Origin: Paraglaciecola polaris LMG 21857
Lineage (GTDB): Bacteria > Pseudomonadota > Gammaproteobacteria > Enterobacterales > Alteromonadaceae
Length of the DNA stretch: 64,000 nucleotides
Assembly (NCBI RefSeq): GCF_000315055.1
Contig: NZ_BAER01000127.1
Location: 124,001-188,000 of the forward strand
Reading direction: 5' to 3'
Shown here: positions 3,300-19,687 of the stretch, piece after piece
Layout: every line of letters begins with the position of its first letter
Position numbering within the stretch: position 1 is the stretch's first letter
Notes under the pieces: model-generated
What the model saw: the letters and a program-made list of their open reading frames with translations, nothing else
Databases searched by the model: none
Told to the model about the DNA's origin: nothing
Made by a program: the position numbers and the translations under genes

Positions 3300-4757
3300 A
3301 TGAAAATAGAACAACTGAATACCGCCTCTCTACGCAAACTAAAACCAGTCATTGATAAGCCTAAATATGCGTTAACCTCTGTTTCTTGCGGTGTTGTCCA
3401 TTTTGGTACCGGCAATTTTCATCGCGCCCATCAAGCTGTGTATTGCGATACGTTACTGAATAAAGGCGAGACAAATTGGGGGATCACAGGTATCTCTTTG
3501 CGCTCGCCAGTCATGCGTGACAATCTCGCGCCGCAAAATTACTTATATACGTTGGCAATACTCGGTGAAACCACGAGCTACCGTGTTATTGGCGCTATTC
3601 AGAACCTGTTGGTTGGCCCCGAAGATCCTCAATCTGTTATCGATGTCGTGGCCCATGGGGGAACTCAGTTGGTCACGACGACGATAACCGAGAAGGGTTA
3701 TTACTTAACTAGTGGTGGGATTGATCGAGCGCATCCAGACATGTTGGGGGATCTTGCGTCAATTAGCGTGCCTAAAACGATTTATGGTTATCTTGCTGCG
3801 GCACTGATTAAACGTAGTGATAATCAAGGCGACCCACTGACTATTCTGTGCTGCGACAACATGCACGGCGGCGGTGAGCATTTACAGCAAGGCGTGCAGA
3901 TGCTATTGGAGCGTCATAGTCCAGATACGCTAAGGTGGGTTGAAAAGAACGTGGCTTTTAGCTCTTCTATGGTAGATAGAGTGACACCTGCGACCGACCA
4001 ATACCTAAAAGATCAAGTGGCTGCTCAGCTTGGTGTATACGACGCAGCGCCTGTTGCAGCAGAGCCATTTACGCAGTGGATAATTGAAGACCGGTTTGCT
4101 GGAATTCGCCCTCCCTTTGAGCAAGCTGGGGCGCTCTTTGTCAACGATATTGCACCGTTCGAGCGAATTAAACTGCGCTTCCTAAATGCCGGACATTCCA
4201 TACTGGCTGCGCTAGGTTATCTGGCTGGGGATCAGTTTATTCATGAAGCATTGCAACGGCCATGTCTTGCCCAATTTGCGGAACAGGCACTCAAACTCAA
4301 CGTGATGCCGGTCACCCCCGTTCCTGAGGGGATCAGTAGCGAAGCCTATATCAATCAGGTACTCCAGCGCTTTAAAAATGGCAACTTACCTTATGGCGTA
4401 TTACAGGTCGGCACAGATAGTTCGCAGAAAATTCAGCAACGCATACTGCCAACTATTGATGATGGGCTTAGCCATGGCGGGGATACATCCTATCTGGCTT
4501 TTGCACTTGGGGCTTGGGTCTGTTTCATACGTAAAGCGTTACAGAATGATGATCTCAATGACCCCTTGGCTGATGAATTCTCTCACTGTATATCAGCAAA
4601 CAAGGGGGGGAGTGTAGCGGCATTTCTGACGTTGGCAGGCGCAAACAAGTTTCATTTTTTCAAGGATGTTCCTTTTATGGCCGCAGTGCAGATATATCAC
4701 AGCAACATTAGTGAAATGGGCGTAGAGCAAGCAATAGATACTTTTTTTAATCCTTAA
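3300..4757 (+). CDS. uxuB: Fructuronate reductase / polyol dehydrogenase (UxuB family)
   Basis: A 485-residue member of the long-chain mannitol dehydrogenase family; the expected reaction is NAD-dependent interconversion of D-fructuronate and D-mannonate. The Rossmann motif is GTGNFHRAH at residues 36-44. The catalytic Lys-Asn-His signature is KLRFLNAGH at 291-299 (Lys291, Asn296, His299). Length matches family members of about 485-490 residues. It starts 15 bases upstream of the mannonate dehydratase gene, and the pair converts fructuronate through mannonate to 2-keto-3-deoxygluconate. Family members also act on mannitol, altronate or arabinitol; the uxuA neighbour supports mannonate here. 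Confidence 0.88.
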   Translation: MKIEQLNTASLRKLKPVIDKPKYALTSVSCGVVHFGTGNFHRAHQAVYCDTLLNKGETNWGITGISLRSPVMRDNLAPQNYLYTLAILGETTSYRVIGAIQNLLVGPEDPQSVIDVVAHGGTQLVTTTITEKGYYLTSGGIDRAHPDMLGDLASISVPKTIYGYLAAALIKRSDNQGDPLTILCCDNMHGGGEHLQQGVQMLLERHSPDTLRWVEKNVAFSSSMVDRVTPATDQYLKDQVAAQLGVYDAAPVAAEPFTQWIIEDRFAGIRPPFEQAGALFVNDIAPFERIKLRFLNAGHSILAALGYLAGDQFIHEALQRPCLAQFAEQALKLNVMPVTPVPEGISSEAYINQVLQRFKNGNLPYGVLQVGTDSSQKIQQRILPTIDDGLSHGGDTSYLAFALGAWVCFIRKALQNDDLNDPLADEFSHCISANKGGSVAAFLTLAGANKFHFFKDVPFMAAVQIYHSNISEMGVEQAIDTFFNP

Positions 4758-4772
4758 AATAGAGAAACGATT

Positions 4773-5972
4773 ATGCGCGAATCTTGGAGATGGTTTGGAC
4801 CAAACGATCCTGTAACCATAGATGAAATACGACAAACAGGTGCCACTGATGTAGTCAGCGCGCTACATTCGATACCGACTGGTGAAATCTGGACACAGCA
4901 GGCAATACGTCAACACCAGTTGTTGATAGAAGAATGTGAGCCTGGTCTTGCGCCCCTGACGTGGAGCGTTGTAGAAAGTATTCCCGTGCATGAAGACATT
5001 AAACTTGCGCGCCCTGGCCATGAAAAATATGTCGAAAACTGGATTGTGTCGATGGAAAATTTGGCCCAGTGTGGCATAAAAACTATCTGCTACAATTTTA
5101 TGCCTGTCATCGATTGGACTCGCACCGATCTTAACTTCAAGCTGCCCAGTGGCGCCTATGCACTGCGTTTTGACCAGAAAAAATTTGCCGCTTTTGATCT
5201 CTTCATTCTTAAGCGCGAGCATGCGGAAGTCGAGTATAGCGCTGGGGAAATCGCCCAAGCGAAACTCGTTTTTGAGGCCATGTCGGAGGCTGAGCGTACA
5301 GTACTGACCAATAACATTATTGCTGGGCTGCCGGGTAAAATGACCGACAGCTACGGTCTGGACGATTTCCGCAGCATGTTAGCGAATTATAAGGATATGA
5401 ACAGTGATGCCTTGCGTCAAAATCTGTTTGCGTTCTTATCAAAAGTGCTGCCGCGAGCGGAAGCCATGGATGTCAAACTGGCCATTCATCCTGACGATCC
5501 ACCTCGGGATATGTTGGGTCTGCCACGGATCATCTGTACTGCTGATGATCTGAATACCTTGTTTCAAGCTCTGCCGAGTCCATCAAACGGGATCACCTTG
5601 TGTGTTGGAACCTATAGCAGTCGCCCAGACAACGACTTACCTGCCATGGCAAAGCAGTTCGGACCGCGTATTCATTTTTCACATCTTCGCGGCGTGAGCA
5701 GAGATCCCGATGAACAGCGCTCTTTTATAGAAGCCAGCCACCTTGATAGTGATATCGATATGGTTCAGGTGATAAAAGAATTATTGAACGAAGAATCAAG
5801 ACGTACAGAAAAAGAAGCCGAGGGACAAAAAATCTTTATTCGTCCGGACCACGGGCATCAAATGATGGGCGATATCGGTAAAAGTGTTAACCCTGGCTAC
5901 TCGGGTATCGGGCGAATGAAAGGCCTGGCTGAAGTGCGTGGTGTCATTCGTGCATTGTCCGCTCAAAAATAG
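4773..5972 (+). CDS. uxuA: Mannonate dehydratase
   Basis: A 399-residue protein (the E. coli enzyme is about 394) that dehydrates D-mannonate to 2-keto-3-deoxy-D-gluconate in the cytoplasm. The N-terminus WRWFGPNDPV is diagnostic of UxuA. Further family blocks are CYNFMPVIDWTRTDL near residues 109-123, HPDDPPRDMLGLPRI near 239, GTYSSRPDND near 287, and RPDHGHQMMGDIG near 357; these carry the metal-binding His, Cys and Asp residues. It is translated right after the fructuronate reductase and probably shares its transcript. Its product is also the compound expected from alginate monomer reduction, so the two branches meet at KDG. Confidence 0.95.
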   Translation: MRESWRWFGPNDPVTIDEIRQTGATDVVSALHSIPTGEIWTQQAIRQHQLLIEECEPGLAPLTWSVVESIPVHEDIKLARPGHEKYVENWIVSMENLAQCGIKTICYNFMPVIDWTRTDLNFKLPSGAYALRFDQKKFAAFDLFILKREHAEVEYSAGEIAQAKLVFEAMSEAERTVLTNNIIAGLPGKMTDSYGLDDFRSMLANYKDMNSDALRQNLFAFLSKVLPRAEAMDVKLAIHPDDPPRDMLGLPRIICTADDLNTLFQALPSPSNGITLCVGTYSSRPDNDLPAMAKQFGPRIHFSHLRGVSRDPDEQRSFIEASHLDSDIDMVQVIKELLNEESRRTEKEAEGQKIFIRPDHGHQMMGDIGKSVNPGYSGIGRMKGLAEVRGVIRALSAQK

Positions 5973-6089: not shown

Positions 6090-7331
6090 ATGATAAATAT
6101 AAAAACGCTTATAAAGTCACTGCTGCCGGGAATATTTTTATTCGGGTTTAATGTAGGTACCGGTAGCGTGACCGCCATGGCAAAAGCGGGTGCGGACTAT
6201 GGTATGTCTTTGCTTTGGACCATTTTCATCTCCTGTGCCATCACCTATTTTTTGATCCACCTTTTTGGCAAGTTCACCTTGGTGACGGGTTTGACTGCAT
6301 TGCAATCCTTTAAACGGCATATCCACCCGGCAGTGAGCATACTTTTTATCATAGCCTTGACTGCGCAAATATGTGGAAGTGTTATCGGCGTGATGGGGAT
6401 TTTGGCAGACATCTGTTACGAATGGTCGCAAAACTTTATTGACGGAGGAATATCGCCGCTGTATTTCGCCATGTTTTTTATCACCTTTGTGTACGTTATT
6501 TTTCTGATTGGTAAGACTGACGTGTTTGAGAAAGTTTTGGCTGTTTTAGTTGCGGTTATGGCTATCTGTTTTTTAATTAATTTCTTTATTCTGATGCCGC
6601 CGGCTACAGAAATTTTAAAAGGTATGATCCCCAAAATACCTGAAGCCAGTGCAGATAAAAACGCCTTTCTGGTGATAGCGTCTATGGTGGGGACTTCGGT
6701 TTTTTCTGGGTTGTTCATACTCAGGACCATACTGGTTAAAGAAGCCGGTTGGACCATGGCCGACTTGAAAACCCAAAACAGAGATGCACTCTTTTCAGCA
6801 TTTCTCATGTTTATTATGAGCACTTCGATAATGGCTGCCGCAGCAGGCTCTTTGTATGCTCAAGGGATAACATTAGTCAATGTGACGCAAATGATTTATC
6901 TATTGGAACCCTTAGCTGGCGCCGCGGCCGTGACTATCTTCACCATCGGCTTAATAGCTGCTGGAGTGTCGTCGCAGTTCCCTAATGTCGCACTACTCCC
7001 TTGGTTGTTAGATGACTTTCATGAGCGCAAGACTAACCTCAAGCGAACGAGCTATCGAATTATTGCTCTGGTCATATCGCTATTAGGCTTAATCGTGCCA
7101 ATTTTTAACGCTAAACCTATCGCTGTCATGGTGGGCTCTCAAGCGTTTGGTGCGTTAGTACTGCCTGCAACGGTTGCTTGTATTGCCTATATCGGCAATA
7201 AAAGTGGCTTAATGGGTGAGCATAAATTCTCAACCACAACCAACGTTATATTATCGATGATTTTTGTCTTTGCATTGTTTATGAGCTACATGAGCTACGC
7301 AGGTATTCTCTCTACGCTTCAGGCTTTGTGA
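6090..7331 (+). CDS. Nramp-fold transporter lacking metal-binding motifs
   Basis: A 413-residue inner-membrane protein with about 11 hydrophobic segments, recognisable as Nramp/SLC11 family from its layout. In true Nramp carriers helix 1 has DPGN and helix 6 has MPHN/MPHV, which bind the divalent metal. Here the helix 1 position reads GTGS (residues 23-26) within VGTGSVTAM, and helix 6 reads VGTSVFSGLF (about 200-209), so Asp, Asn, Met and His are all missing. It sits between mannonate dehydratase and a sugar isomerase-like gene. It shares GTGSVTAM with the paralogue at 10275-11513. Inference: proton- or sodium-coupled uptake of a uronate or related acid rather than a metal. Confidence 0.8.
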   Translation: MINIKTLIKSLLPGIFLFGFNVGTGSVTAMAKAGADYGMSLLWTIFISCAITYFLIHLFGKFTLVTGLTALQSFKRHIHPAVSILFIIALTAQICGSVIGVMGILADICYEWSQNFIDGGISPLYFAMFFITFVYVIFLIGKTDVFEKVLAVLVAVMAICFLINFFILMPPATEILKGMIPKIPEASADKNAFLVIASMVGTSVFSGLFILRTILVKEAGWTMADLKTQNRDALFSAFLMFIMSTSIMAAAAGSLYAQGITLVNVTQMIYLLEPLAGAAAVTIFTIGLIAAGVSSQFPNVALLPWLLDDFHERKTNLKRTSYRIIALVISLLGLIVPIFNAKPIAVMVGSQAFGALVLPATVACIAYIGNKSGLMGEHKFSTTTNVILSMIFVFALFMSYMSYAGILSTLQAL

Positions 7332-7469
7332 GCGGGTAGCCGCGGGTGTGCTGGTTTATGCGCGGACTCCCGCTCGCAGCAAGGTGCTATATATGCTTAG
7401 TCAGTATTTTAGTCTCATTGGCTGATGGTTTAACAGAACATCGCCGCTAGCAGTAATGGAAATAAAACT

Positions 7470-8546
7470 ATGAATCAAATTATTAAGTTCGGCGCTAATC
7501 GTGTTTGGCGAACCTATCAAGGTGGCAAGTTGCTCGATACGATTGAAGGCAAAGACAGTCCACAAGATTCAAGCCTCCCAGAAGATTGGATTGGCTCTAC
7601 CGTTGAAGCGCGTAATGTGGGTCGCGAGCATGTGTCGGAGGGATTAGCCATGGTAACGGACGATGAAGGGCAATCCATTCCCTTTCGTGATTTATTGCAC
7701 AAGGATCCGCAGTATTTTTTAGGCAGTATCGGTGACACCAAACGTTCTATGGACGACATTCCATTGGTCAAATATTTGGATAGTTCCACCCGTTTACATT
7801 TTCAAGCTCATCCTACCCGGGCTTTTGCCCAAGAGCGACTTGGCTTACCTAGGGGCAAGACCGAAGCCTACGTTATCCTAGAAACCCGTGATGATGTGAG
7901 TGACCCATACATATACGCAGGCTTTCAACGTCCGCCTAGTCGCGAACAGCTAAAAGAGTGGATTGAAAAGCAAGACATCAAATCAATCGAAAGTTGTTTC
8001 GATCGCATTCCAGTAAAAACAGGCGATGTGTTTCTCATTCCTGGGGGGCGCCCTCACGCGCTAGGTGAGGGCATACTGATGTTGGAGATTATGGAACCTT
8101 CGGACCTGGCCGTCAGATTCGAATTTGAGCGTTGTGGGTACGTTATTCCTGAGCAAGCTAGGTTCATGGGGCGGGGAATTGAAACGGCTTTAGACGTATT
8201 TGACTTTAGCCCTATTGTGCCAGAAAAAGTCGATGCTGAGTTTCGTTGTCAGCCCACAGTGCTTAACAGCGATGAGCAAGGCAACACATTAGAGGAGCTG
8301 GTAGGTGCGAAAAATACCTCCTGTTTTACCATCAGGCGTGCGACGGTTAATGGCGTGTTTGAGCGAAATGAAGAGGCTTTCTTCTATGGCGTAGTAACTC
8401 ACGGTTCGGGCACGCTGCGCATTGGTGATGAAGTAACTGAGCTTAAGCAGTGGGAGCGTTTTTTCTGCCCAGCGGGGGTGACAGAATTTGCATATGAATC
8501 AGCGTCTGGTATGTCTATTTTAGAATGTTACCCGGGTCATACCTAG
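7470..8546 (+). CDS. Type I phosphomannose isomerase-like protein (cupin)
   Basis: A 358-residue member of the zinc-dependent mannose-6-phosphate isomerase family. The metal ligands can be matched: Gln112 and His114 in FQAHP, Glu132 in GKTEAY, and His196 in GGRPHALGEG. The first motif reads FQAHPTR instead of the usual QVHPDD. It starts 138 bases after the transporter and ends at a shared terminator. Known members interconvert mannose-6-P and fructose-6-P. In this uronate cluster an aldose-ketose isomerase acting on mannuronate to give fructuronate would fit the next enzyme, UxuB; that is inference. A housekeeping phosphomannose isomerase role remains possible. Confidence 0.75.
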   Translation: MNQIIKFGANRVWRTYQGGKLLDTIEGKDSPQDSSLPEDWIGSTVEARNVGREHVSEGLAMVTDDEGQSIPFRDLLHKDPQYFLGSIGDTKRSMDDIPLVKYLDSSTRLHFQAHPTRAFAQERLGLPRGKTEAYVILETRDDVSDPYIYAGFQRPPSREQLKEWIEKQDIKSIESCFDRIPVKTGDVFLIPGGRPHALGEGILMLEIMEPSDLAVRFEFERCGYVIPEQARFMGRGIETALDVFDFSPIVPEKVDAEFRCQPTVLNSDEQGNTLEELVGAKNTSCFTIRRATVNGVFERNEEAFFYGVVTHGSGTLRIGDEVTELKQWERFFCPAGVTEFAYESASGMSILECYPGHT

Positions 8547-8573
8547 TTCACCCATTCATTTTTACTGTGTGAT

Positions 8574-8618
8574 AAAGCCATTAAATAGCAGTATTATATT
8601 ACTACTTAATGGCTTTTT
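8574..8618. terminator. Bidirectional rho-independent terminator
   Basis: AAAGCCATTAA ... TTAATGGCTTTTT forms a long stem with A-rich and T-rich flanks. It lies between two convergent genes, so it can stop transcription from both sides. Confidence 0.85.
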
Positions 8619-8628
8619 GTTCGTTGAG

Positions 8629-9729
8629 TTATTTTTGCGGTGCGATAGCGGGCCCTGTCACTAAACGTGAAAAGGTCACTTGCGCATAGTCGCCATTTTT
8701 CTTGTCTGTTTCCCAATCGCCAGTGCCTAAACAGGCTGGATACCACATACCCGGATCGTCTTTGATACTGCATTGATCATAAGCGCCCGCTTTAAAGAAG
8801 TTAGCATCACCGCTATAACCGCTTGGGTGATCAAGCTTATCAACTTGGCCATTTGCATCGACGTTATTAGCTAAATTGATAGCAAAATGCTTAGTACCGT
8901 GACGAGGACTAGTAAAGGTTAAATACATGATATTATGGTATACGTTCACTTCGTAACTAAAGCTTTCATCAAGAGCAATGCCTTGTTCAGCAGGGTCTGT
9001 TGCCTCATCCCATGGCGTTCCCCAAACCGAGTAACTAATGTCTTGCCTGTCTGGGTTTTCTTTGGCGAGATTGCGCTCATAGTTCCAAAAAACTGAACCG
9101 TACTTATGCTCCGGCCATTTTTTATAGTAAATTTTTAACGGTTCATTGCCATAACCATAGCCTTCACCTTCAGCGACGATTTTTTTGTCTTTAGTGGCAT
9201 GAATTTGTCCAACCACCACTGAAAAAGCCGGCGGCTTGTTTGGGTATTTAGCACGTTTGGCAACATGATTCACTGCAAGGGTTGCTTGTAAGTTGCCACC
9301 TATCTGGCCGTATTGCTGGGCACGTTTGTTGTTTTGCAACGCGAAGTTATCGGCAAAGCGGTCCTTCTTGGCGTCCATGTCAGCAACCACTTGGTGCAGT
9401 TCGCTGCGTGTATTCGATGAGTTAGGCGTCGTGAACGCTTTATTCGGCGTGGCGAACACCATATTACCTTGGTCATTTAGATAAAAATAATCAGGGTGCT
9501 GAAACGTTTGTATTTTCTTGGTACTGATGCCATCAACCTTACCATCATTATTGTTATCGGTTGGTATGGTTATCTTCCAGTGGGTTAAATCGAATTTATC
9601 CGCTGGCACTAACGCCGTTTTGTCGTTTTCGTTGCTAGTAGAGTTACAACCAGCAAGCGCTAAGATACTTATGGCCATTGCGGTGAATGATTTAGCGCCT
9701 GGGGGGAACGTTAATTTTGTTATCTTCAT
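8629..9729 (-). CDS. PL7 alginate lyase, lipoprotein
   Basis: A 366-residue endolytic-type alginate lyase of polysaccharide lyase family 7. It starts at the ATG at 9727-9729, which has GGAG about 9 bases upstream; a longer reading would run into gntK. The N-terminus is a lipoprotein signal (LALAGC, Cys28). PL7 catalytic blocks are RSEL at 108-111, QIH at 175-177 and FFKAGAY at about 311-317. The QIH form is reported to go with guluronate-containing substrates. RSEL is followed by His where Arg is usual. It is the last gene of the minus-strand series, 43 bases after gntK, and is a paralogue of the lyase at 15409-16497. Confidence 0.93.
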   Translation of the reverse strand: MKITKLTFPPGAKSFTAMAISILALAGCNSTSNENDKTALVPADKFDLTHWKITIPTDNNNDGKVDGISTKKIQTFQHPDYFYLNDQGNMVFATPNKAFTTPNSSNTRSELHQVVADMDAKKDRFADNFALQNNKRAQQYGQIGGNLQATLAVNHVAKRAKYPNKPPAFSVVVGQIHATKDKKIVAEGEGYGYGNEPLKIYYKKWPEHKYGSVFWNYERNLAKENPDRQDISYSVWGTPWDEATDPAEQGIALDESFSYEVNVYHNIMYLTFTSPRHGTKHFAINLANNVDANGQVDKLDHPSGYSGDANFFKAGAYDQCSIKDDPGMWYPACLGTGDWETDKKNGDYAQVTFSRLVTGPAIAPQK

Positions 9730-9772
9730 AATTGATACTCCGTCATTTTTCGATGTAGCCCTATTAAAGGAC

Positions 9773-10261
9773 TCAAAAAGTGTGTAAGCGCGCCACGATT
9801 GATTGCACAATATCTTCTGGTGGCGGCTGTATATCCACCACAACAGCATCATTAGGTAGTTCTAATGTACTGAGTTGCGAGTCCAATAATCGGGGCTCGA
9901 AAAAGTGCCCTTTACGTGCGCCTAAACGCTCAGTCAGCAAGGCTTTTGAGCCATGCAGGATAATCCACTCAATATTGCTTGTGCATTTTGAGGCTAGGGT
10001 GTCACGGTATGCCGCTTTTAAAGCAGAGCAGGCAAGTACCGCGCCTCCTTCGTTTTCCCATGAGGCTAATTTATCTGATAGAGTCTCGAGCCAAGGCTGA
10101 CGATCCTCATCATTTAGCGGCGTGCCATTTTGCATTTTTTGCACATTAGACTGGGGATGAAAATCATCTGCGTCATAAAAAGGCAGGCTTAGCTTTTCAG
10201 CTAACATATTGCCTATGGTTGATTTCCCCGTTCCTGATACTCCACATACAATCAGAATCAT
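9773..10261 (-). CDS. gntK: Gluconokinase (GntK family)
   Basis: A 162-residue P-loop kinase phosphorylating gluconate to 6-phosphogluconate with ATP. The Walker A is GVSGTGKST at residues 7-15, followed by the family block YDADDFHP, then NGTPLNDEDRQPWL; length is normal for bacterial GntK (about 160-175). The gene starts 13 bases after the Nramp-fold transporter stop, so the two are surely co-transcribed. KDG kinases are usually PfkB-type, and none is in the window; a gluconokinase in an alginate operon may act on gluconate or a related aldonate. The exact substrate is not settled by sequence. Confidence 0.88.
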   Translation of the reverse strand: MILIVCGVSGTGKSTIGNMLAEKLSLPFYDADDFHPQSNVQKMQNGTPLNDEDRQPWLETLSDKLASWENEGGAVLACSALKAAYRDTLASKCTSNIEWIILHGSKALLTERLGARKGHFFEPRLLDSQLSTLELPNDAVVVDIQPPPEDIVQSIVARLHTF

Positions 10262-10274
10262 TTTCTATCCTTTA

Positions 10275-11513
10275 TTATTCTATAAGCCCAAGAATACCGT
10301 TAAACGAAATCAAAATAGAAAACATAAACGCTAAGCCTAATACGATATTGAGCAAGTAGCCCGCAGCATGTTCCCCCATCATTTTTTTCTTATTGATCAT
10401 TAAAATGATCCCCAAGATAACCAATGGCAAAACAAATACGTTAAAGACCTGGGTTAATAACTGTCCTTTAACGGGGTTGAAACCAAATACCGGAATAGTG
10501 AGGGCAAATAACGCTGCTATACCCGTGATGATACGAAACTGGGTAGATTGGGTGTCCAATTTACCCGAGCGGTAATCTTCTATTAGCAGTGGGGCAATTA
10601 ACATACACGGGAACACCGAAGATAAACCAGCGGCAAGCGTACCGAAAAAGAAGACAGTCAGTGCACCTTTGCCGGCTATGGGTTCAAGGGCATTGACCAT
10701 ATCTAGTACGTCTGTAACTTGTTTTCCTTCATGAAACAAAGCGCCTGCGGCTACAGCCATAACTGAACCACTAATAACAAACACCAGTACAGCGGCAACA
10801 ATCGCATCTTTCTTTTGTTGCGCTCTGTCAGCAATGCCCCAGCCCTTGCCTTGAATAAACAAAGGTCTAGACAGAAAAGTGGCCGAGGCCATGGTTGTGC
10901 CAACAAAAGCCGCTACCATCATTTTACCACCCACTACATCGGGTATAACGGGTATCAGTCCGCGCATGACTTCAACGGGCATTGGGTGCACCACAAACAG
11001 TGACAATATGAAGGATAGCCCCATACAGGATACAAAGATCACCAGAATTTTTTCAAATAATGAGTACTTCCCGATTAGCAATATTGCATACATGATGCTT
11101 ATCACGAGCACGGCTATTGTCACTACCACAGCATATTTATGTGGGATCACCGCAGGGAAGTACATGGCGATCATTTCAAATAAAATATTGGAGGAAATCC
11201 CCAGTATGCCAGTCAGTGAATTCCATTGACCGAAGGACACACCTATGATGATAAGGATAGCAATCACCTTACCGAATTTAAGGTGTTTTTTAAAACTATA
11301 AAGGGCCGTTTCTCCCGTTACTAACGCAAAATTACCATAGGCGTAAATAAGGACCCCTGAAAACAAGCAGCTTAACAGCAAAACCCACAACAACTGCATG
11401 CCAAAGGTGCTACCTGCGACAATCATTGCCGTAACACTGCCAGTGCCTATGGTATAACCAATGGCTAAAAACGCTGGACCAAAACTCAGAATAGCTCTAA
11501 TGAATGCTGACAT
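10275..11513 (-). CDS. Nramp-fold transporter lacking metal-binding motifs (second copy)
   Basis: A 412-residue polytopic membrane protein of the Nramp/SLC11 superfamily. Its start (GPAFLAIGYTIGTGS) lines up with the GPAFIAAIGYIDPGN region of E. coli MntH, but DPGN is replaced by GTGS (residues 23-26). The helix 6 MPH motif is replaced by TMASAT (about 207-212). Every residue that contacts Mn in known structures is thus lost. The same GTGSVTAM segment occurs at the same position in the transporter at 6090-7331, so the two form a distinct subfamily. It is co-transcribed with gntK and follows the mutarotase-like gene. Inferred role is import of alginate-derived monomers or another sugar acid. 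Confidence 0.8.
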   Translation of the reverse strand: MSAFIRAILSFGPAFLAIGYTIGTGSVTAMIVAGSTFGMQLLWVLLLSCLFSGVLIYAYGNFALVTGETALYSFKKHLKFGKVIAILIIIGVSFGQWNSLTGILGISSNILFEMIAMYFPAVIPHKYAVVVTIAVLVISIMYAILLIGKYSLFEKILVIFVSCMGLSFILSLFVVHPMPVEVMRGLIPVIPDVVGGKMMVAAFVGTTMASATFLSRPLFIQGKGWGIADRAQQKKDAIVAAVLVFVISGSVMAVAAGALFHEGKQVTDVLDMVNALEPIAGKGALTVFFFGTLAAGLSSVFPCMLIAPLLIEDYRSGKLDTQSTQFRIITGIAALFALTIPVFGFNPVKGQLLTQVFNVFVLPLVILGIILMINKKKMMGEHAAGYLLNIVLGLAFMFSILISFNGILGLIE

Positions 11514-11611: not shown

Positions 11612-12046
11612 TTAAAAGCCACTTTCTTCTGCCATTTTTACCACCCCCACAGTGAGGATAATATTGGCAAAACGACGCTGTTCACCCGTTTGTATAATCA
11701 AAGTCGTAGCGGGCTCTCGGATTTTGTCGTAAAAAGCCCAGCGCTCCATCGCATCCCACGTTACATCCCCAAGTAAGGTTTTGTAGGCGTCGTGGATTTC
11801 CGCGTTCGCCTCAACGGGTTTCTCCATCACAATTGCGCCTTGAACCGGACAAACTTCAAGTATGCCTTCGAGCACGGTTAAGGCATCTAACAAACCTGGA
11901 CGAAAGTTAAGATGTACCGTCGTTGAGTTCGGTCCTGTCATAGCCCCTACCGGCAAGTTGCCGTCAGCAATGACAACTTGGGCAAAATGCCCAGAGCGAG
12001 CGAGAGCTTCCATAATGGTCGGGTGTATTACCGCTGTTTTAAGCAT
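11612..12046 (-). CDS. RbsD/FucU family mutarotase
   Basis: A 144-residue protein of the RbsD/FucU family, which speeds interconversion of sugar anomers. The start at 12044-12046 gives MLKTAVIHP, matching the MLKTISPLI start of E. coli FucU; a longer TTG-initiated reading is unlikely. Matching blocks are SGHFAQVVIADGNLP (FucU: MGHGDEIIFSDAHFP), ERWAFYDKI (FucU: NRFAFYERA) and GEQRRFANIIL near the C-terminus. It sits between the SDR reductase and the transporter in the alginate series. By context it could equilibrate a uronate or the ring forms of the alginate monomer; no fucose genes are nearby. Substrate is unproven. Confidence 0.82.
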   Translation of the reverse strand: MLKTAVIHPTIMEALARSGHFAQVVIADGNLPVGAMTGPNSTTVHLNFRPGLLDALTVLEGILEVCPVQGAIVMEKPVEANAEIHDAYKTLLGDVTWDAMERWAFYDKIREPATTLIIQTGEQRRFANIILTVGVVKMAEESGF

Positions 12047-12121
12047 CAAATTATCTTTTTTAAATGGCCGAATAGAAAGTAGCGCCAATGAGCGCAAGAT
12101 TGTTTATGCTTCAACAATCAA

Positions 12122-12883
12122 CTACATATTGTATACGCCGCCGTTGATATCGAGTGTGGCGCCTGTGATAAAACCGTCGTATTCAGATGCCAGATAAACC
12201 ACTGCTCGTGCTACATCATCTGCGTTGCCTGCGCGCGCAATAGGAATACCTGCAATCGTTTGCTCCGCTGAGGCTTTGGTTGTGTGAGTATTATGAAACG
12301 AGGTACCTAGAATAAGCCCAGGTGCGACAGCGTTGACTCGAGTACCTTGTGGTCCTAGTTCAGCAGATAGAGCGCGTGTTAGCGTGAGAATGGCGCCTTT
12401 GCTAGTGGAATAGACTAATGACCCTGGGTGCCCACCTTTACGGCCAGCCAGAGATGCCAGATTAACAATACTGCTGCTTTCATGTTTGCCTAGATAAGGT
12501 GCTGCGGCGCGTGTCACAAACATCGTAGAGGTAAGGTTAATGTCCATAACCTTGTGCCAGAACTCGGCATCCATTTCGTTTAGTAATCGCCTTGCGACAA
12601 GGGATCCTGCGTTGTTGATAAGTATGTGCAAACTTCCAAGCGCGTCTACGGTTTGTTCGACCATCGCATTCGCTTCAGTCTCGTTAGTTAAGTCAGCACT
12701 TATCGCCACCGCTTTTTGGCCTTTGCTGATTGCGTATTCGACCAATTGGTTCGCTGTGTCAGCACTAGAGAAGTAATGGATAGCAACGTTTGCGCCACTA
12801 TCAATTAAGTGTTTGCTGATGGCTTCGCCAATGCCTTGTGCACCTGCGGTAATAAGTACGTTTTTGCCAGTTAACTTTGTCAT
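12122..12883 (-). CDS. SDR oxidoreductase, probable DEH reductase
   Basis: A 253-residue short-chain dehydrogenase. The start at 12881-12883 follows GGAA and removes a poorly supported 12-residue extension. The cofactor motif is TAGAQGIG at residues 12-19, with Ala where the first Gly normally stands. NNAG is at 90-93; the catalytic set is Ser144, Tyr158 and Lys162 (YSTSK). In alginate degraders an SDR reduces 4-deoxy-L-erythro-5-hexoseulose uronate (DEH) to KDG. Its place directly after the PL6 and PL7 lyase genes supports that role. Other SDR substrates, such as fucose or 3-oxoacyl compounds, cannot be excluded from sequence alone. Confidence 0.8.
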   Translation of the reverse strand: MTKLTGKNVLITAGAQGIGEAISKHLIDSGANVAIHYFSSADTANQLVEYAISKGQKAVAISADLTNETEANAMVEQTVDALGSLHILINNAGSLVARRLLNEMDAEFWHKVMDINLTSTMFVTRAAAPYLGKHESSSIVNLASLAGRKGGHPGSLVYSTSKGAILTLTRALSAELGPQGTRVNAVAPGLILGTSFHNTHTTKASAEQTIAGIPIARAGNADDVARAVVYLASEYDGFITGATLDINGGVYNM

Positions 12884-12932
12884 TGCTGCGTTTCCTAATT
12901 CGATAAAGTCGTTGATCATGTTGGGGCGGTTA

Positions 12933-13046: not shown

Positions 13047-15287
13047 CTAATCGTACGTCACATTTTTGGCTTCAAATTCAGTATTGTTTGCGCGGATTTT
13101 GCCAGTGTCTTTCATCTCAACATCTTCGATAACCGTAATAGGCTCTCCGTTGGTTAAGAACAGCTCCAACGGCGCACTCTTATCCCAAGTGGTATGTGAA
13201 ATGTTGAGCTTTTGCACCCCATGAAAATACATTGACGCGCCTGATCTATGGGTCGATCCTTTACCGACATTACTTAGGGTGTTGTTGGTTACCGTGACCA
13301 TAGGACCAAAGGTACTTTCATCAGTACCGCCTCGATAAACCGTAGCCACCTCTTCTTTAATATCGGTGAAGGTGTTACCCGAAATGACAAGGTTTTCAAC
13401 GCTGTACACACCTAAATCGTCGACTTCACGATTTAATTGCAAAATGGCACCGGTAATATTGCTAAATTCTGAGTTAAGAATTTCAATGGAATCAGCGAAC
13501 GTGCCCGCGTTGGCCTTGAAGAAGTAAAAGTAACCATTCACATCAAGGTCGGTTACTTTCACGTTGCGTACCGACAAGTTGTAGTTAATATTCATCGAAT
13601 AACCACTGGTACTGATGATCGTATTGCCTTTGTAATCAGGGGATTCAGCTCCATCAAACCATAGGTTCTCAACTTCTAGGCCACCGCCATTTTCAATGTT
13701 GATAAAGTTCGGTTTTTGCGAACGAATAATAGGCTTTTTACCTTCTTGCGCCATGATGGTGATGGGGTGGTGCACCTCAGCGAATTTGGTCAGCAGGTAC
13801 TCGCCGCCATTTTCAAGCATTAAAACATCACCGGGCTGGCTAGCCGCTAGAGCATTAATGAGCGTATCGGTTCCTGCTTTTACCTTAGTGTGTTTACCAC
13901 TTTGAAATGCCACCTTGCCTTCATCTTTGACGTAAAAGTCAGCACCGACTTCTTTTTTGGTCACTGGCAGTTTTACTTCGCCAAAGCCAATTTGATCTAG
14001 CAGGGCTTTATCGGGAGACTGCAAGCCATATTGATTGGTTGTAACGGAGTAAGGCGTGCTGGCAAAACCAGACGTAATCGGTGTACTGGCTTCTTCGTTT
14101 AGGTAGTTACCTGTAAAGTTGATGCCAGACATATCGTCATACAAAGTAAATGGTTCGAGGTTGGACTTACCTAGAATGATGTTTCCGCTGAATTCTGACG
14201 TCGTAGGGGGAGCAGAGCGTTCTTCGTCTGCACCAGCACCAAGTTCAATGTGATCGCTGTCGATAACGATGTTGTTGTTCATGGCTGAGTCGATAACAGG
14301 GTCGTAGCGATTAGGCGGTGAGTTGGGCACGCCGTTCATAATGACTAATGCGCCGCGCAAACGCTGACCAGTTAGCCCGTACATATAGTTATTACTGACT
14401 GATTGGCTTTCGTTAATGATACGAATACCGCCGGTATTAGGCTTGCGATTACCTAGGAAATAGTTACCTTCCACTTTGGTGAAATGACCATGACGCATAG
14501 TGAGTGTACCTTGAGTTTCAAAAAAGACATTTTTGAGCAAGGAGTTACCGCTGGATTTATTAGAAATGATTTCATGCTCACCATTCGTGCGGTCAAAATA
14601 ATTGTATTGTGCTGTGGTATTTGAATACTCACGGGAAAAATGACTAGTGCCTATACGTAATGTCTCGCCGCCATTGGCACCGAGTATTTGTCTTGGGCCA
14701 AAGTAGTTGTACTCAATCACATGATGATTTTTGCGACTCGCTTCGGTATTCATTCTAACCGCTAACGTCACACCGCGATTACGTTTATTGACCAAAGAGT
14801 TGTGGTCAAAGCGGTTGTTCTTGCCGTACATAGCCACCCATAGATCAGACATTTGACGCAAGTCAGTACTAAAGTTATCGATCACCGTATTGGTTACTCG
14901 AGAGTGATTTGCTACGTCTTCGTTGGATGTTCTGAATGAAATGACTTCGCCCGTTGGCGTAGCGCCATCTTTAAAAACTAAGCCTGATACAACAATGTAC
15001 TCACCAGAAAATGCGAGGTTAGATTTGCCCGTAATGATCACTTTACCTGGAGTTTGAGCCTTTAATTCGATGGGGTTATCGGCAAGCCCTTTCGCTTTTA
15101 AAATCAGTTCCACATCTTTCCACGTCCCGTTTGCCAGAACAATCTTTTCTCCTGGTTTGACGGATGCTGCGGCTTTATTAAATTGCTCAATATTTTTAAC
15201 TAGAGCAGCGTGACTCACGTGTGATAAAGAAACTAACGTGAGTAATAATATAAAAGGAAAAAAAGGTACTTTAGCAACCTTCGCCAT
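13047..15287 (-). CDS. PL6 alginate lyase, two-domain (AlyGC-like)
   Basis: A 746-residue secreted lyase of the chondroitinase-B/PL6 type. A signal peptide ends near SHVSHA (residue 27), and GGAG lies about 9 bases before the ATG. The first parallel beta-helix carries the catalytic pair Lys244 (ISNKSSGN) and Arg265 (TLTMRHGHF). Their 21-residue spacing equals the Lys-Arg spacing reported for AlyGC of Glaciecola. A second beta-helix follows from about residue 460 (KAGTDTLINAL onward). Two-domain PL6 enzymes of this kind are exolytic and release monomers, preferring guluronate blocks. It lies between PL7 and SDR genes, linking depolymerisation to monomer reduction. Confidence 0.93.
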   Translation of the reverse strand: MAKVAKVPFFPFILLLTLVSLSHVSHAALVKNIEQFNKAAASVKPGEKIVLANGTWKDVELILKAKGLADNPIELKAQTPGKVIITGKSNLAFSGEYIVVSGLVFKDGATPTGEVISFRTSNEDVANHSRVTNTVIDNFSTDLRQMSDLWVAMYGKNNRFDHNSLVNKRNRGVTLAVRMNTEASRKNHHVIEYNYFGPRQILGANGGETLRIGTSHFSREYSNTTAQYNYFDRTNGEHEIISNKSSGNSLLKNVFFETQGTLTMRHGHFTKVEGNYFLGNRKPNTGGIRIINESQSVSNNYMYGLTGQRLRGALVIMNGVPNSPPNRYDPVIDSAMNNNIVIDSDHIELGAGADEERSAPPTTSEFSGNIILGKSNLEPFTLYDDMSGINFTGNYLNEEASTPITSGFASTPYSVTTNQYGLQSPDKALLDQIGFGEVKLPVTKKEVGADFYVKDEGKVAFQSGKHTKVKAGTDTLINALAASQPGDVLMLENGGEYLLTKFAEVHHPITIMAQEGKKPIIRSQKPNFINIENGGGLEVENLWFDGAESPDYKGNTIISTSGYSMNINYNLSVRNVKVTDLDVNGYFYFFKANAGTFADSIEILNSEFSNITGAILQLNREVDDLGVYSVENLVISGNTFTDIKEEVATVYRGGTDESTFGPMVTVTNNTLSNVGKGSTHRSGASMYFHGVQKLNISHTTWDKSAPLELFLTNGEPITVIEDVEMKDTGKIRANNTEFEAKNVTYD

Positions 15288-15408: not shown

Positions 15409-16497
15409 CTACATAGGTGATGCTGGGCCAACCACTAACGATGAAAAGGTTACTTTTGTATAGTCTCCATTGGCTACATCTGTTGCCCAATCGCCGGTTC
15501 CGGGGCAAGCCGGATAACGAAAGCTAGGAGCATTCAACTTGGTGCTGCATTGGTTATACGCTCCTGCTTTGAAATACAGGGTTTCATCCTTGTATGCGAA
15601 GGGATAATCCGCTTTGTCTATTTCACCATTGGCATCCGTATTGTCAGCCAAATTTATTTGTTGATGGACAGTGCCATGCTTGGCACTGGTAAAAACAAGA
15701 TGCATGACGTTGTTATATATATTGATCGTATAGCTAAACTCTTCACCCAGTGCGATACCGTCGTCACCGGGATCAGTTGCATCATCCCAATTGCTGCCCC
15801 AAACAGGGTACGCAATGTCAATTCTGTCTGGGTCGTCCTTGGCAAGGTTTCGTTCATAGGTCCAAAAAACCGAGCCTTTTTCATGATTTGGCCATTTTTT
15901 ATAAGAGATTTTTAACGGCTCGTTACCCCAGCCAAGTCCGGGAACTTGCATAGCATCATCAAGTTGGAATGAATGTACTTGGCCCACCACCACTGAGTAA
16001 GCAGGGGGCTTGTGGGGATATCCTGCATTTTGAGCCACGTGGTCAACGTGTAAGGTGGCAGTTAGTTTTCCGCCCACGGAAGCATATTGCTCAGCTGATT
16101 TATTCGCTGCTAGCGCAAAATTATTACTTGGCGCACCTTCGGGAATCGATACGTTATTGCCACGGATCATATAACGTAGTTCACTTCGGGTATTAGTCGA
16201 CGTTCGCTCTGTTGCTGCACGGTTAGGCGTAGCAAAAACCAAATGGTTATTTTCATCTAGATAGAAAAAGTCAGAATGGGAAAAGTGCTTTATAGCTGGC
16301 ACATCATATATGTCAGAGACTTGGTCATTGTCTTCATCTAGGGGAACGGTGAGATACCAATGACTTAGATCAAACTTACTTGCAGGTAGTTGTTTTACGG
16401 TACTTAACGGTTTTTGAGGGGCTTCTGTTGAGGTTGTGGTGTTGCCACAGCCAGCGAGCAGAACGCAAGCAAGTGAAACTGAAAATTTAGTGTGCAT
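15409..16497 (-). CDS. PL7 alginate lyase, lipoprotein (QVH type)
   Basis: A 362-residue family 7 polysaccharide lyase with a lipoprotein signal (CVLLAGC, Cys17), so probably anchored in the outer membrane. Catalytic blocks are RSELR at 104-108, QVH at 173-175 and YFKAGAYNQC near the C-terminus. The QVH variant is reported to go with mannuronate-rich substrate, whereas the paralogue at 8629-9729 has QIH. The two proteins align along their whole length (for example FDLSHWYLTVP against FDLTHWKITIP), so they come from a duplication that has diverged in specificity. It lies downstream of the TonB receptor and upstream of the PL6 lyase on the same strand. Confidence 0.93.
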   Translation of the reverse strand: MHTKFSVSLACVLLAGCGNTTTSTEAPQKPLSTVKQLPASKFDLSHWYLTVPLDEDNDQVSDIYDVPAIKHFSHSDFFYLDENNHLVFATPNRAATERTSTNTRSELRYMIRGNNVSIPEGAPSNNFALAANKSAEQYASVGGKLTATLHVDHVAQNAGYPHKPPAYSVVVGQVHSFQLDDAMQVPGLGWGNEPLKISYKKWPNHEKGSVFWTYERNLAKDDPDRIDIAYPVWGSNWDDATDPGDDGIALGEEFSYTINIYNNVMHLVFTSAKHGTVHQQINLADNTDANGEIDKADYPFAYKDETLYFKAGAYNQCSTKLNAPSFRYPACPGTGDWATDVANGDYTKVTFSSLVVGPASPM

Positions 16498-16693: not shown

Positions 16694-19669
16694 TTAGAAC
16701 TTGGCTCTTACACCAACGGTCATGCGGCGATCCGCTTCGCTATATTGCCAAATACTGCCAAGCTCGGTGACTTGACGAATTGGCTCCCCCGTTAAGTTCA
16801 CGGCATTGGCAACCAATGTCAGGTTTTCGTTAACGTCGTAGCTGGCAGAGAAGTCAAATTGACCTCGCGCATCACGGTAGTTGTTACCTAAAGTCGGGTC
16901 ATAGAATTCGGCACTTGGGTCGGTACGGTTATAAATACCGGTTGCTAAAGCACCGACAGGACGGACACGTTTCTCATCTTGCGTATCAAGATACTTGTCA
17001 CGCCAGTTGTATGCTAAGCGCACCTGCCAACCTTCATATTCCCAGTAAACTTGCGCGTTGACTGTGTTGTTAGAGATATCCAAAAGCGGATTACCATCGG
17101 GTTGCTCACTGTCGGCATAGGTATAGTTTGTACTAACACCTAGGCCAGACCATGCACCGGGTAACGAGCTGAATTGTTGTTGGTAGGCTAATTCGATACC
17201 GACTATTTTACCGCTGCCGCCATTTATATCTGTGTTAATGACAATACCCGTTAGGCCTGCGTCTCTTTGTCCTTCAACGTAGGCAAGGTCTTGATCGCTT
17301 GTGGCGTAATTCACATTGGCTTGGTCCACACCGGCAGTATCGAGCAAACAAACGTTGACGTATTCCGTCACGTTTTGCCCTTCAACCGTATCGGGATTCG
17401 CTTGGCAAGAACTGCTACTGACGGTGAATGATTCAACGTCTTTGTAGAAAATAGCCGCGGACATCAAGCCGCCTTGACCAAAGTAATGCTCAGCTGACAA
17501 ATCGTATTGTGTTACACGATAGGGGTCTAACTGGTACGAGCCTTGTGAGCCTGTTACTAAGGAGTTATCAACGTTCAATGCTGGGCTTAGTTCACCGAAT
17601 TCTGCGCGGCGCATTACTTTAGCTGCGGCAAAACGTAAGATAGTTGAATCCGTCAGGTTGTACGTAGCATTAATGCTGGGTAAGAAGTCAGCGTAATCGT
17701 GCTTAGCTTCTTCATTAAATGTACTAGAGGTTAAATCTGTGGTCACATACCGTGCACCAACAATTGCCGTTAAGCGATCAAAGTCCAAATTAAACTGGGT
17801 ATATATGGCTTGGGTTTCTTCTTCGATTTTCGCGTAAGAACCCGTGTTGCGAGCCATATTTTCATCAAGGGTACCTGTTAGTTCCAGGTTACTACCGGCA
17901 AGCATTTGTTTTACTCGGTCGTAGGTTCCATTGATGTCATAAGCTAACGCCGCACCGTCATAAACGAAGTAGTTGGTTAACGCGTTATTGCCTGAAATAC
18001 CGCTTTGATCGAATGAGTTTGAATGGTTAACTTGCTTGAATCCACCAAAGGCATCATTGAAATCACCTATCCAAGTAGGGGTAACGACTCCATCATAAGA
18101 CACACTGGTTTGTAGGTTTTTAAGCTCATCCCCGTTGTTTCTAAGATCGAATCTGTCTAGCTCATATTCACTATCGGTCGTACGCACACCTGCTTTAATG
18201 GAGCGAAGAAATTCTAACCCAGCAAAAGGTTCAACATATTCCACATCAAAACGAATGGCGGTTTCTTCGTTATCCTCAGAGTATCTTTGGTGTGTAAACT
18301 GACGGATCGCCAAGTTATTTGGGTCAAGGAGGGCATCTTCATCAGAGAACGCAAGACCGGGTACTTTGTCACCATCTTGGGTCATAGTAATGGTGAATAA
18401 ATGCTCAGTAATAGTGCCGTCGGCATCGTATTGTTCACGAGAAATAGGGCGCAAATTAAATTCAGAGTTTCTGCGTTTAGCTTCGGACTTTGCATAGGAG
18501 ATTTCACCAGACACTTTCAATTGGTCTGTTAACTGAAACTCACCGCCCAATGCATTTGAGATCGATTCATTGGTTGTAAAATCAGACCATGTTTTAGGCT
18601 GTACAAAAACACTTCCTGAACCAAAATTATGCAGCTGGCCTTGACCATCGCCGTAAGCATTATCGAGCACTAAATCGCCGTAATCTTTACTGTCATTCAA
18701 TACAGAGTATGCTTCTTGGCCACCATCAAGTTCAGTGGTGTTAATATCCAAATAAATAAAGCCATCGCTGTCTTTAGGTGCCCACTGCAATGACAAACCT
18801 AATGCGGTACGCTCACGCTGTTCCGTTTTCTGTTCAACCGTGTTCTGACTTCTGACAAGGTAGTTGCCGCTCGCGGTGTTTGCTTGGTCGCTGGTACCGT
18901 CACCATCTAAGTCAAGTTCTGTGGGCGTAACAAGGTTAATGAATTCATCGCGACGTAACTCGCGATCCTGATAAGAGACCACCACAGAGGCGCCGAAGGT
19001 ACCAGCATCACCTAAGTCCCAGTTTGTGCCTGCTGCTGCATTGAACATAGGTGCCCAATTTTCAGTTTTGTCAGCATATTCCCCATCTAAGGTAACGGCG
19101 ATAAGTGGCTCTTCTAGCTCCAGTGGTCGAACTGTTGTCATGTTGATCGTGCCGCCTAATGCGCCTTCAATCATTTCAGGGGTAGGAGACTTAATGACTT
19201 CAACTGTTTTTAAGAAACTTGAAGGGAAGTCATCTAAGCTGATACCACCACGACCGCTGCCTGAAGTTGAGCGACCGTTTAATTCAACACGGTTTTGCGA
19301 AATACCACGAATGGTAACGGACTCACCTACACCAAAATCAGTACTAATAGACACGCCGGTAATACGTTGCAGGGCTTCGGCTATATTGTTATCAGGTAAT
19401 TTACCTATATCTTCGGCAACAATAGCGTCTACGATACGAGCATCGAAGCGTTTTTGACGCGCTGACTCCGCTAAACTACCCGCAATACCTTGAACTTGAA
19501 TGACTTCTACATCTTGAGTTTCCGAAGTGACATCCGATTGAGCTGACACAACAGGGGCAGCTAACATTGCTGTCAAAGCTGCGCCGAAAATAGCTAAGTT
19601 GTTAGCCTTAGTTCTCGTATTATTAAAAAGGGCACTTATTTTGTTCAGTTTCATTGGTGAGCCTTGCAT
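16694..19669 (-). CDS. TonB-dependent receptor of the alginate locus
   Basis: A 991-residue outer-membrane receptor. The ATG at 19667-19669 is preferred because GGAG lies about 9 bases upstream; the upstream GTG overlaps that ribosome site. A signal peptide ends near PVVSAQS. The plug domain has IGKLPDNNIAEALQRITGV, IRGISQNRVELNG and GGTINMTTVRPL; the barrel ends with aromatic-terminated VGVRAKF. The plug closely resembles that of the partial receptor at 1-2792, so the two belong to one family. It opens the minus-strand lyase series and most likely imports alginate oligosaccharides. A GntR-type operator lies directly before it. Confidence 0.95.
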   Translation of the reverse strand: MQGSPMKLNKISALFNNTRTKANNLAIFGAALTAMLAAPVVSAQSDVTSETQDVEVIQVQGIAGSLAESARQKRFDARIVDAIVAEDIGKLPDNNIAEALQRITGVSISTDFGVGESVTIRGISQNRVELNGRSTSGSGRGGISLDDFPSSFLKTVEVIKSPTPEMIEGALGGTINMTTVRPLELEEPLIAVTLDGEYADKTENWAPMFNAAAGTNWDLGDAGTFGASVVVSYQDRELRRDEFINLVTPTELDLDGDGTSDQANTASGNYLVRSQNTVEQKTEQRERTALGLSLQWAPKDSDGFIYLDINTTELDGGQEAYSVLNDSKDYGDLVLDNAYGDGQGQLHNFGSGSVFVQPKTWSDFTTNESISNALGGEFQLTDQLKVSGEISYAKSEAKRRNSEFNLRPISREQYDADGTITEHLFTITMTQDGDKVPGLAFSDEDALLDPNNLAIRQFTHQRYSEDNEETAIRFDVEYVEPFAGLEFLRSIKAGVRTTDSEYELDRFDLRNNGDELKNLQTSVSYDGVVTPTWIGDFNDAFGGFKQVNHSNSFDQSGISGNNALTNYFVYDGAALAYDINGTYDRVKQMLAGSNLELTGTLDENMARNTGSYAKIEEETQAIYTQFNLDFDRLTAIVGARYVTTDLTSSTFNEEAKHDYADFLPSINATYNLTDSTILRFAAAKVMRRAEFGELSPALNVDNSLVTGSQGSYQLDPYRVTQYDLSAEHYFGQGGLMSAAIFYKDVESFTVSSSSCQANPDTVEGQNVTEYVNVCLLDTAGVDQANVNYATSDQDLAYVEGQRDAGLTGIVINTDINGGSGKIVGIELAYQQQFSSLPGAWSGLGVSTNYTYADSEQPDGNPLLDISNNTVNAQVYWEYEGWQVRLAYNWRDKYLDTQDEKRVRPVGALATGIYNRTDPSAEFYDPTLGNNYRDARGQFDFSASYDVNENLTLVANAVNLTGEPIRQVTELGSIWQYSEADRRMTVGVRAKF

Positions 19670-19687
19670 ATTGTATGTCTCCACTAA

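Follow-up and report, generated by a model that had tools for sequence, protein, structure and literature searches.

Relatives of the Nramp metal transporters that carry something other than a metal are already known, with one precedent for an organic acid. Ray et al. (2026) describe the Nramp-related proteins that lack both the metal and the proton motifs as paraphyletic and present their groups as uncharacterized, save for the NRMT-like and G-motif 3 groups (PMC12873925). The organic-acid precedent is PxpT, assigned to the NRAMP family by its authors, which is required for growth on 5-oxoproline and is reported as a likely importer, metals not being excluded (PMC13274462). In addition, the words "Nramp, metal-ion transporter" appear in a supplementary-figure legend on two alginolytic systems of Alteromonas sp. 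76-1 (PMC6431674). Alginate lyases can release saturated mannuronate (M) and guluronate (G) besides the unsaturated unit (PMC5809466), and the route of that unit, 4-deoxy-L-erythro-5-hexoseulose uronate (DEH), is described as cytoplasmic and composed of KdgF, DehR, KdgK, and Eda (PMC13390454). Here, we analyze two Nramp-type proteins, N1 and N2, encoded near alginate lyase genes in a 64,000-nucleotide stretch of the Paraglaciecola polaris LMG 21857 genome (the window; contig C20, 124001-188000; genome of 5.24 Mb, 100% complete). Both have lost the metal-binding motifs of their family, and we propose that N1 probably imports saturated D-mannuronate and that N2 might import L-guluronate.

Motifs, fold, and phylogeny of N1 and N2

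N1 (413 amino acids) and N2 (412 amino acids) are 36% identical to each other and match the Nramp family of Pfam (PF01566) over nearly their full length, with 181.3 and 197.0 bits, respectively (cut-off, 29.8). With 64.2 and 66.3 bits, both also score above the cut-off (50) of the NCBIfam model Nramp_1, named "Nramp family divalent metal transporter," and would be labeled accordingly. In each protein, the DPGN of helix 1 is replaced by GTGS at residues 23-26, within the common string GTGSVTAM, and phmmer alignments to solved Nramps place GTGS on the DPGN stretch. The same alignments place FSG of N1 and ASA of N2 on the MPH of helix 6, and Asp, Asn, Met, and His are missing at all four motif positions in both proteins. 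Open reading frames, family match, and alignments agree here with an earlier note on this DNA, which had reported two Nramp-type proteins of 412-413 residues with GTGS and GTGSVTAM and had read the helix-6 replacements as VFSG and MASA. By alignment, the helix 6 motif becomes TxxF in N1 and TxxA in N2. At the columns of Asp131 and Glu134 of DraNramp, which belong to the helix-3 proton pathway, N2 has Ser and Gly by phmmer, an assignment to be read together with a large MAFFT alignment that places helix 3 differently.

Arg212 of N1 and R216 of N2 share one alignment column, which phmmer equates with a histidine five residues past the MPH histidine of DraNramp. Among 157 Nramp-family rows gathered from several phyla, some genomes being represented twice and the rows not all independent (e.g., L060/L088, L062/L093, L063/L100, and L011/L159), GTGS is found in 115, and its retention across that many rows and several phyla argues against chance. 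Arg occupies the column in 115/115 GTGS rows, and His occupies it in 30/30 GPGT rows and in the one DPGN row. It is conceivable that this arginine, in helix 6b, helps to bind a carboxylate.

AlphaFold2 models of N1 (mean predicted local distance difference test score, pLDDT, of 87.1; predicted template modeling score, pTM, of 0.86) and N2 (pLDDT of 88.5; pTM of 0.87) were compared by Foldseek, with the N1 model built from an alignment of 75 rows, namely both window proteins and 73 of 83 collected rows. The best match of N1 was BfraNramp, and its top matches were Nramps; that of N2 was EleNRMT, with Nramps also among the top matches.

In a maximum-likelihood tree of 71 rows, 44 GTGS rows unite with 100/100 support and contain an N1 clade (100/99) and an N2 clade (100/100), while E. 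coli MntH, a second DPGN protein, and the GPGT group fall outside. The GTGS carriers therefore form a well-supported branch apart from MntH and the GPGT proteins, as the earlier note had supposed when it called for such a tree. The deep relations are uncertain because of several long branches and the midpoint root, and the canonical proteins are represented by two rows. The remaining GTGS rows, from Bacteroidota loci L191-L203, do not form a single clade. Their genes lie near GH2, GH20, GH88-like, glucosamine-isomerase-like, and AP_endonuc_2 genes (a single scanned case of each) and, in L198, near UxaC; the cargo of these proteins may be an amino sugar or a uronate.

The branch is sparsely distributed. 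Counting the genome of the window, N1-type proteins (at least 60% identity) occur in 3/369 genomes of a sample of its class and N2-type proteins (at least 74% identity) in 7/394 genomes of a sample of its order, four of which 394 hold an N1-type protein; 20/296 Bacteroidota genomes give a match at the level of the GTGS branch (E 1e-40 or better). Among the matches listed, the nearest named kin are Paraglaciecola sp. 20A4, whose N2 is 98% identical to that of the window, and other Alteromonadales. Besides N1 and N2, a genome search for the Nramp family found one further protein, which is of the GPGT type, is encoded on contig C124, and shares 24-25% identity with the two carriers. The gene for the GPGT protein (L001; L209:9005-14187) is divergently placed beside a hydantoinase/oxoprolinase gene (1250 amino acids), in a setting that resembles that of PxpT.

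Gene neighborhoods and proposed routes

The two gene groups of the window converge, with 13-196 bp between adjacent genes (Table 1). The plus-strand group consists of a uxuB-like gene, uxuA, N1, and a gene for a protein resembling mannose-6-phosphate isomerase (MPI-like). On the minus strand, N2 lies with genes for a short-chain dehydrogenase/reductase (SDR), an RbsD/FucU-like protein, gluconokinase, and a PL7-type lyase; upstream of these are a PL6-type lyase, a second PL7-type lyase, and a TonB-type receptor. That sugar-acid genes flank both carriers, as had been noted before, is evident from these assignments.

Candidates for all three steps of D-mannuronate catabolism adjoin N1. UxuA scores above its cut-off, and the UxuB-like and MPI-like genes are assigned by family alone, under NCBIfam cut-offs. 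Among NCBIfam models, the UxuB-like protein is matched best by D-arabinitol 4-dehydrogenase (297 bits), followed by fructuronate reductase (283 bits); these matches are under cut-off, as are the Pfam cupin matches of the MPI-like protein. We propose that N1 and N2 may be inner-membrane secondary carriers of the LeuT fold that move sugar acids instead of metals. N1 would import D-mannuronate, which the MPI-like enzyme would convert to D-fructuronate, UxuB to D-mannonate, and UxuA to 2-keto-3-deoxy-D-gluconate (KDG). Saturated M and G would be leftovers of the alginate lyases, with the unsaturated unit taking its own route. For saturated mannuronate, unlike DEH or KDG, catabolism calls for an aldose-ketose isomerase, a reductase, and a mannonate dehydratase, and so the neighbors of N1 fit mannuronate. 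Of the cargoes suggested earlier (mannuronate, DEH, or KDG), the first is thus retained for N1 and the other two are disfavored; the L-guluronate that fits N2 was not among them. Genome context is what points to an organic-acid cargo. What N1 and N2 carry, in which direction, and with which coupling ion is inferred, as are the reactions assigned to the MPI-like protein and the SDR.

Table 1. Positions of the N1 and N2 gene groups and their motif codons in the window
Feature	Position	Strand	Basis
uxuB-like oxidoreductase, mannitol dehydrogenase family; proposed D-fructuronate reductase	3300..4757	+	PF01232, PF08125 above cut-off
uxuA, D-mannonate dehydratase	4773..5972	+	TIGR00695 496 bits (cut-off 199.55); PF03786
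N1, Nramp-fold carrier, GTGS/VFSG, R212; proposed D-mannuronate importer	6090..7331	+	PF01566, tree, AlphaFold2, Foldseek
GTGS codons, N1 residues 23-26, at DPGN place of metal-transporting Nramps	6156..6167	+	Sequence, alignment
MPI-like cupin protein; proposed D-mannuronate isomerase (to D-fructuronate)	7470..8546	+	TIGR00218 52 bits, under cut-off 116
PL7-type alginate lyase, probable lipoprotein	8629..9729	-	PF08787 184 bits
Gluconokinase GntK	9773..10261	-	TIGR01313 161 bits (cut-off 113.75)
N2, Nramp-fold carrier, GTGS/MASA, R216; proposed L-guluronate importer	10275..11513	-	PF01566, tree, AlphaFold2, Foldseek
GTGS codons, N2 residues 23-26	11436..11447	-	Sequence, alignment
RbsD/FucU-like protein; possible guluronate mutarotase or isomerase	11612..12097	-	PF05025 108 bits; NCBIfam matches under cut-off
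SDR oxidoreductase; proposed 5-keto-D-gluconate reductase	12122..12919	-	PF13561; SDR tree
PL6-type alginate lyase	13047..15287	-	PF14592 (Chondroitinase B) 356 bits
Second PL7-type alginate lyase	15409..16497	-	Read from sequence; relatives matched by blast
TonB-dependent receptor	16694..19684	-	Read from sequence; relatives matched by blast

The first PL7 open reading frame, if begun at its first ATG (9852), overlaps the gluconokinase gene, and a later ATG (9729), followed by a lipoprotein-like signal, is the likelier start.

The association of N1 with this route extends well beyond the window. With one genome taken per species, relatives of N1 amounted to at least 595 pattern matches, at least 562 of them confirmed, and the N1 locus counts that follow come from the best 80 of these at least 562 relatives and lean to close kin of N1. 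Neighbors labeled PL6, PL17, KdgF, KdgK, GntR, TonB receptor, major facilitator superfamily (MFS), or aldolase were assigned by sight or by blast against our own references; identity floors of 45% and 40% were applied to the SDR of the mannonate-oxidoreductase type and to the N2 SDR, respectively. At least one gene of the D-mannuronate route is present at 58/80 loci, and at 55 of these such a gene lies no more than 300 bp from N1. A dehydratase is found at 46/80 (UxuA at 43, ManD at 6), an isomerase at 32/80 (MPI-like at 29, AGE-type at 3; the isomerase alone at 12), a reductase at 19/80 (UxuB at 14, SDR of the mannonate-oxidoreductase type at 5), and an alginate lyase at 28/80. Enzyme families swap between N1 loci while the reaction step stays: the SDR of L120 exceeds the D-mannonate oxidoreductase cut-off, the enolase of L126 exceeds that for ManD, and the epimerase of L122 is closest to D-mannose isomerase, far under its cut-off. 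By phylum, a route gene accompanies N1 at 43/43 loci of Pseudomonadota and at 3/9 loci from outside both this phylum and Bacteroidota. This pattern suggests that most of the N1 loci, though not every one, encode conversion of a manno-configured acid into KDG, an association that is strong for Pseudomonadota and less so for other phyla. None of the tested route and lyase genes was found in nine GPGT loci (20 kb each).

The UxuA proteins of three N1-bearing genomes score 392-396 bits against the UxuA model, compared with 440-547 for most others of the order, which hints at a distinct subgroup. Equally low scores occur in three genomes without N1 (G718, G707, and G586; 394-403 bits).

Similarly, a route can be hypothesized for N2. 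The ketose isomer of L-guluronate is 5-keto-D-gluconate. N2 would most likely import L-guluronate, to be isomerized to this ketose, perhaps with help from the RbsD/FucU-like protein; the SDR of the window would reduce 5-keto-D-gluconate to D-gluconate, and GntK would phosphorylate D-gluconate to 6-phosphogluconate. Two genes beside N2 speak to this route, the gluconokinase, which is above cut-off, and the SDR, whose specificity is unproven and which exceeds the cut-off in none of the 25 NCBIfam matches listed. Gluconate lies outside the DEH route, but the SDR could reduce 5-keto-D-gluconate to gluconate, which leads to the guluronate reading of N2. Fifteen N2 loci were compared, eight from the order of the window and seven from Bacteroidota (one of the latter, L190, being an 8.7-kb contig). 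Within the order, a PL6-type lyase is present at 8/8, the SDR at 8/8, gluconokinase at 7/8, and an RbsD-like gene at 4/8, the last making 4/15 overall. In a FastTree phylogeny of SDRs, those of the N2 loci of the order and of L187 separate from the SDRs beside kdgK and an MFS carrier. L187 (9418-12607) also encodes a fusion of gluconokinase and 6-phosphogluconate dehydrogenase (629 amino acids) between N2 and lyase-type genes.

Evidence against the proposal and alternative cargoes

Several observations weigh against mannuronate as the cargo of every N1-type protein. A route gene is present at only 12/28 Bacteroidota N1 loci; 22 of the 80 loci are without one, 16 of these in Bacteroidota, and 18 also lack lyases, although four of the 18 span <8 kb. 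All three steps occur at just 17/80 loci, and a dehydratase alone at 24. The question raised in the earlier note, whether the GTGS branch always sits beside uronate genes, is answered in the negative by these 22 loci and by the 13/13 GTGS loci L191-L203 (4-20 kb), in which none of the tested route and lyase genes was found, L198 having UxaC. At four of the isomerase-only loci, L094, L116, L125, and L139, a GH38 or GH92 alpha-mannosidase gene and an MPI-like gene are present without UxuA, as are a GH38 gene (by Pfam) and an MPI-like gene at L140. In addition, the catalytic domain of type I phosphomannose isomerase was not found in the genome of the window. The MPI-like protein could therefore serve there as the isomerase for mannose 6-phosphate, which weakens the assignment of this protein to mannuronate.

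The N2 part meets similar difficulties. Among the seven Bacteroidota N2 loci, gluconokinase is present at one (L187), a lyase match at two (L187 and L188), and the N2 SDR, by identity, at two (L185 and L187), while L189 has DGOK adjoining N2. The group to which the SDR of the window belongs also takes in one from an N1 locus (L135), and the L185 SDR lies outside it. No guluronate isomerase was identified beside N2, and L-iduronate and L-guluronate yield one ketose; L-iduronate as the cargo of N2 is chemically possible and less likely next to alginate lyases. The Bacteroidota counts lower the odds of the N2 part, and guluronate for N2 is less secure than mannuronate for N1.

These observations leave room for a first alternative, that the GTGS carriers move some other organic solute, be it D-mannose for the N1 type or gluconate, glucuronate, or short oligo-uronates for either. 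The MPI-like isomerase adjoining N1 would suit D-mannose, which may well be the cargo at the five mannosidase-linked loci, and the further GTGS proteins beside GH2, GH20, glucosamine-isomerase-like, and UxaC (L198) genes likewise suggest a wider range. For N2, the neighboring gluconokinase directly fits gluconate, and the absence of gluconokinase from 6/7 Bacteroidota loci also speaks for another solute. On the other side, UxuA or ManD at 46/80 and alginate lyases at 28/80 N1 loci point to an acid. Moreover, gluconate is not known to be a product of alginate lyases.

Glucuronate deserves separate consideration, as D-glucuronate and D-mannuronate yield one ketose. In the route described for glucuronate, UxuB and UxuA act downstream of UxaC (PMC6353982). 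No UxaC match was found in the genome of the window. UxaC is present in 9/46 N1-bearing genomes, these being 43 picked for uxuA beside N1 plus G000, G674, and G883, or in 8/45 if G883, whose UxuA is not demonstrated, is left aside. Of 66 UxuA-bearing genomes in the order of the window, one (G656) bears N1 and lacks UxaC, and UxaC is present in 60 of the 65 without an N1-type match. The difference between N1-bearing and N1-free genomes is marked (Fisher p = 1.3e-15) and persists among named gammaproteobacterial isolates alone (UxaC in 3/11; p = 9e-6), but the control comes from a single order of mostly complete genomes, and 43 of the 46 N1 genomes span phyla and include metagenome-assembled genomes, so that, given these differences in taxonomy and completeness, the comparison, though strong, is not clean. 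With UxaC not found in 37/46 N1-bearing genomes, glucuronate was set aside as the cargo of N1 in spite of the shared ketose. Taken as a whole, the alternative of another organic solute appears rather unlikely.

It could also be argued that N1 and N2 are still Mn or Mg importers with a rebuilt site, located among the alginate genes so as to supply metal-dependent enzymes or because alginate binds divalent cations. Their fold and family scores are those of Nramps, NRMTs carry Mg and Mn despite a changed motif (PMC8806188), and YcsG of Bacillus subtilis, counted among the Nramp-related proteins (PMC12873925), is reported as a Mn importer by Ogura et al. (2023) (PMC10448178). The genome search for the Nramp family found no DPGN/MPH-type Nramp in the genome of the window, and by phmmer a Met of N2 sits one residue ahead of the MPH column. 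Against this, the residues at the four motif positions are gone, among them the helix-1 Asp that even NRMTs keep; a linkage to sugar-acid steps whose enzymes swap families is hard to explain by metal supply; and the constant arginine of helix 6b would disfavor a cation site. Loss of the metal site together with linkage to uronate genes makes the metal-transporter label doubtful, in agreement with the warning in the earlier note that such an annotation would mislead, and metal import, rejected as first choice on the same two grounds, seems improbable.

Least probable of all is that N1 and N2 chiefly carry DEH or KDG: alginate lyases are close by, KDG is the product of UxuA, and N2 genes of three Bacteroidota loci (L184-L186) lie near matches to our KdgK and MFS references, but the DEH route requires no MPI-like, UxuB, UxuA, or GntK step (PMC13390454), and other carriers are at hand. 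Indeed, roughly 5-26 kb upstream of uxuB lie genes for an MFS carrier, a sodium:solute symporter (SSF), PL6- and PL17-type lyases, a PfkB kinase, and further SDRs, and the MFS carrier shares 77% identity with its counterpart at a different alginate locus, L115. The presence of MFS and SSF carriers in the same region suggests that N1 and N2 are additional carriers with different enzymes attached.

We thus return to uronate import as the preferred explanation. Import of saturated D-mannuronate by N1 is probable on the strength of the neighboring genes, import of L-guluronate by N2 falls slightly short of an even chance, and the two together we would rate as evenly poised. More tentatively, the GTGS branch as a whole could comprise Nramp-fold carriers of sugars and sugar acids with a helix-6b arginine in several phyla, of which N1 and N2 would, in alginate degraders, divide the saturated monomers between two routes. 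If this holds, bacteria of several phyla have converted a fold known for metal import into a carrier of sugar acids, and uptake and catabolic steps would be supplied for the saturated mannuronate and guluronate that may arise from alginate lyase action, with relevance to the turnover of brown algae and to the engineering of alginate-fermenting strains. The evolution of the Nramp substrate site would, moreover, become testable by exchanging GTGS/Arg and DPGN/MPH.

Comparison with known systems

A search of the open-licence PMC literature, with subscription papers outside its scope, found no mannuronate or guluronate role for any Nramp homologue, the Alteromonas sp. 76-1 legend (PMC6431674) coming nearest, and the route from L-guluronate via 5-keto-D-gluconate and gluconate to 6-phosphogluconate was likewise not found in the open-licence PMC literature. 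Alginate catabolism through DEH, as far as it is set out in PMC13390454, has similar loci with lyases and shares KDG with the route proposed for N1; it handles the unsaturated monomers, whereas the genes beside N1 and N2 fit saturated M and G.

Among transporters, the canonical SLC11/NRAMP proteins (MntH, DraNramp, and BfraNramp) share PF01566, the LeuT fold, and the broken helices 1 and 6 with N1 and N2, but have DPGN and MPH and belong to a separate branch, and the neighbors of N1 and N2 point to sugar acids. The NRMT Mg transporters, represented by EleNRMT, resemble N1 and N2 in the Thr that opens the helix-6 motif, and the best structural match of N2 comes from this group; in the sections of PMC8806188 that bear on these motifs, NRMTs retain the helix-1 Asp (DxxG) with TxxA/T in helix 6, whereas N1 and N2 have GxxS in helix 1.

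PxpT and YcsG offer the closest parallel in genome context, being Nramp homologues encoded with organic-acid catabolic genes (PMC13274462; PMC10448178). We infer that both are GPGT-type proteins, their sequences standing outside our tree. Unlike N1 and N2, GPGT proteins have His in the arginine column and form a clade of their own, and no 5-oxoprolinase gene was found among the scanned neighbors of N1 and N2. Finally, the Nramp-related proteins of PMC12873925 share with N1 and N2 a PF01566 match without the helix-1 and helix-6 motifs. Set beside those groups by their description in the preprint, the branch identified here differs in being tied to defined sugar-acid routes.

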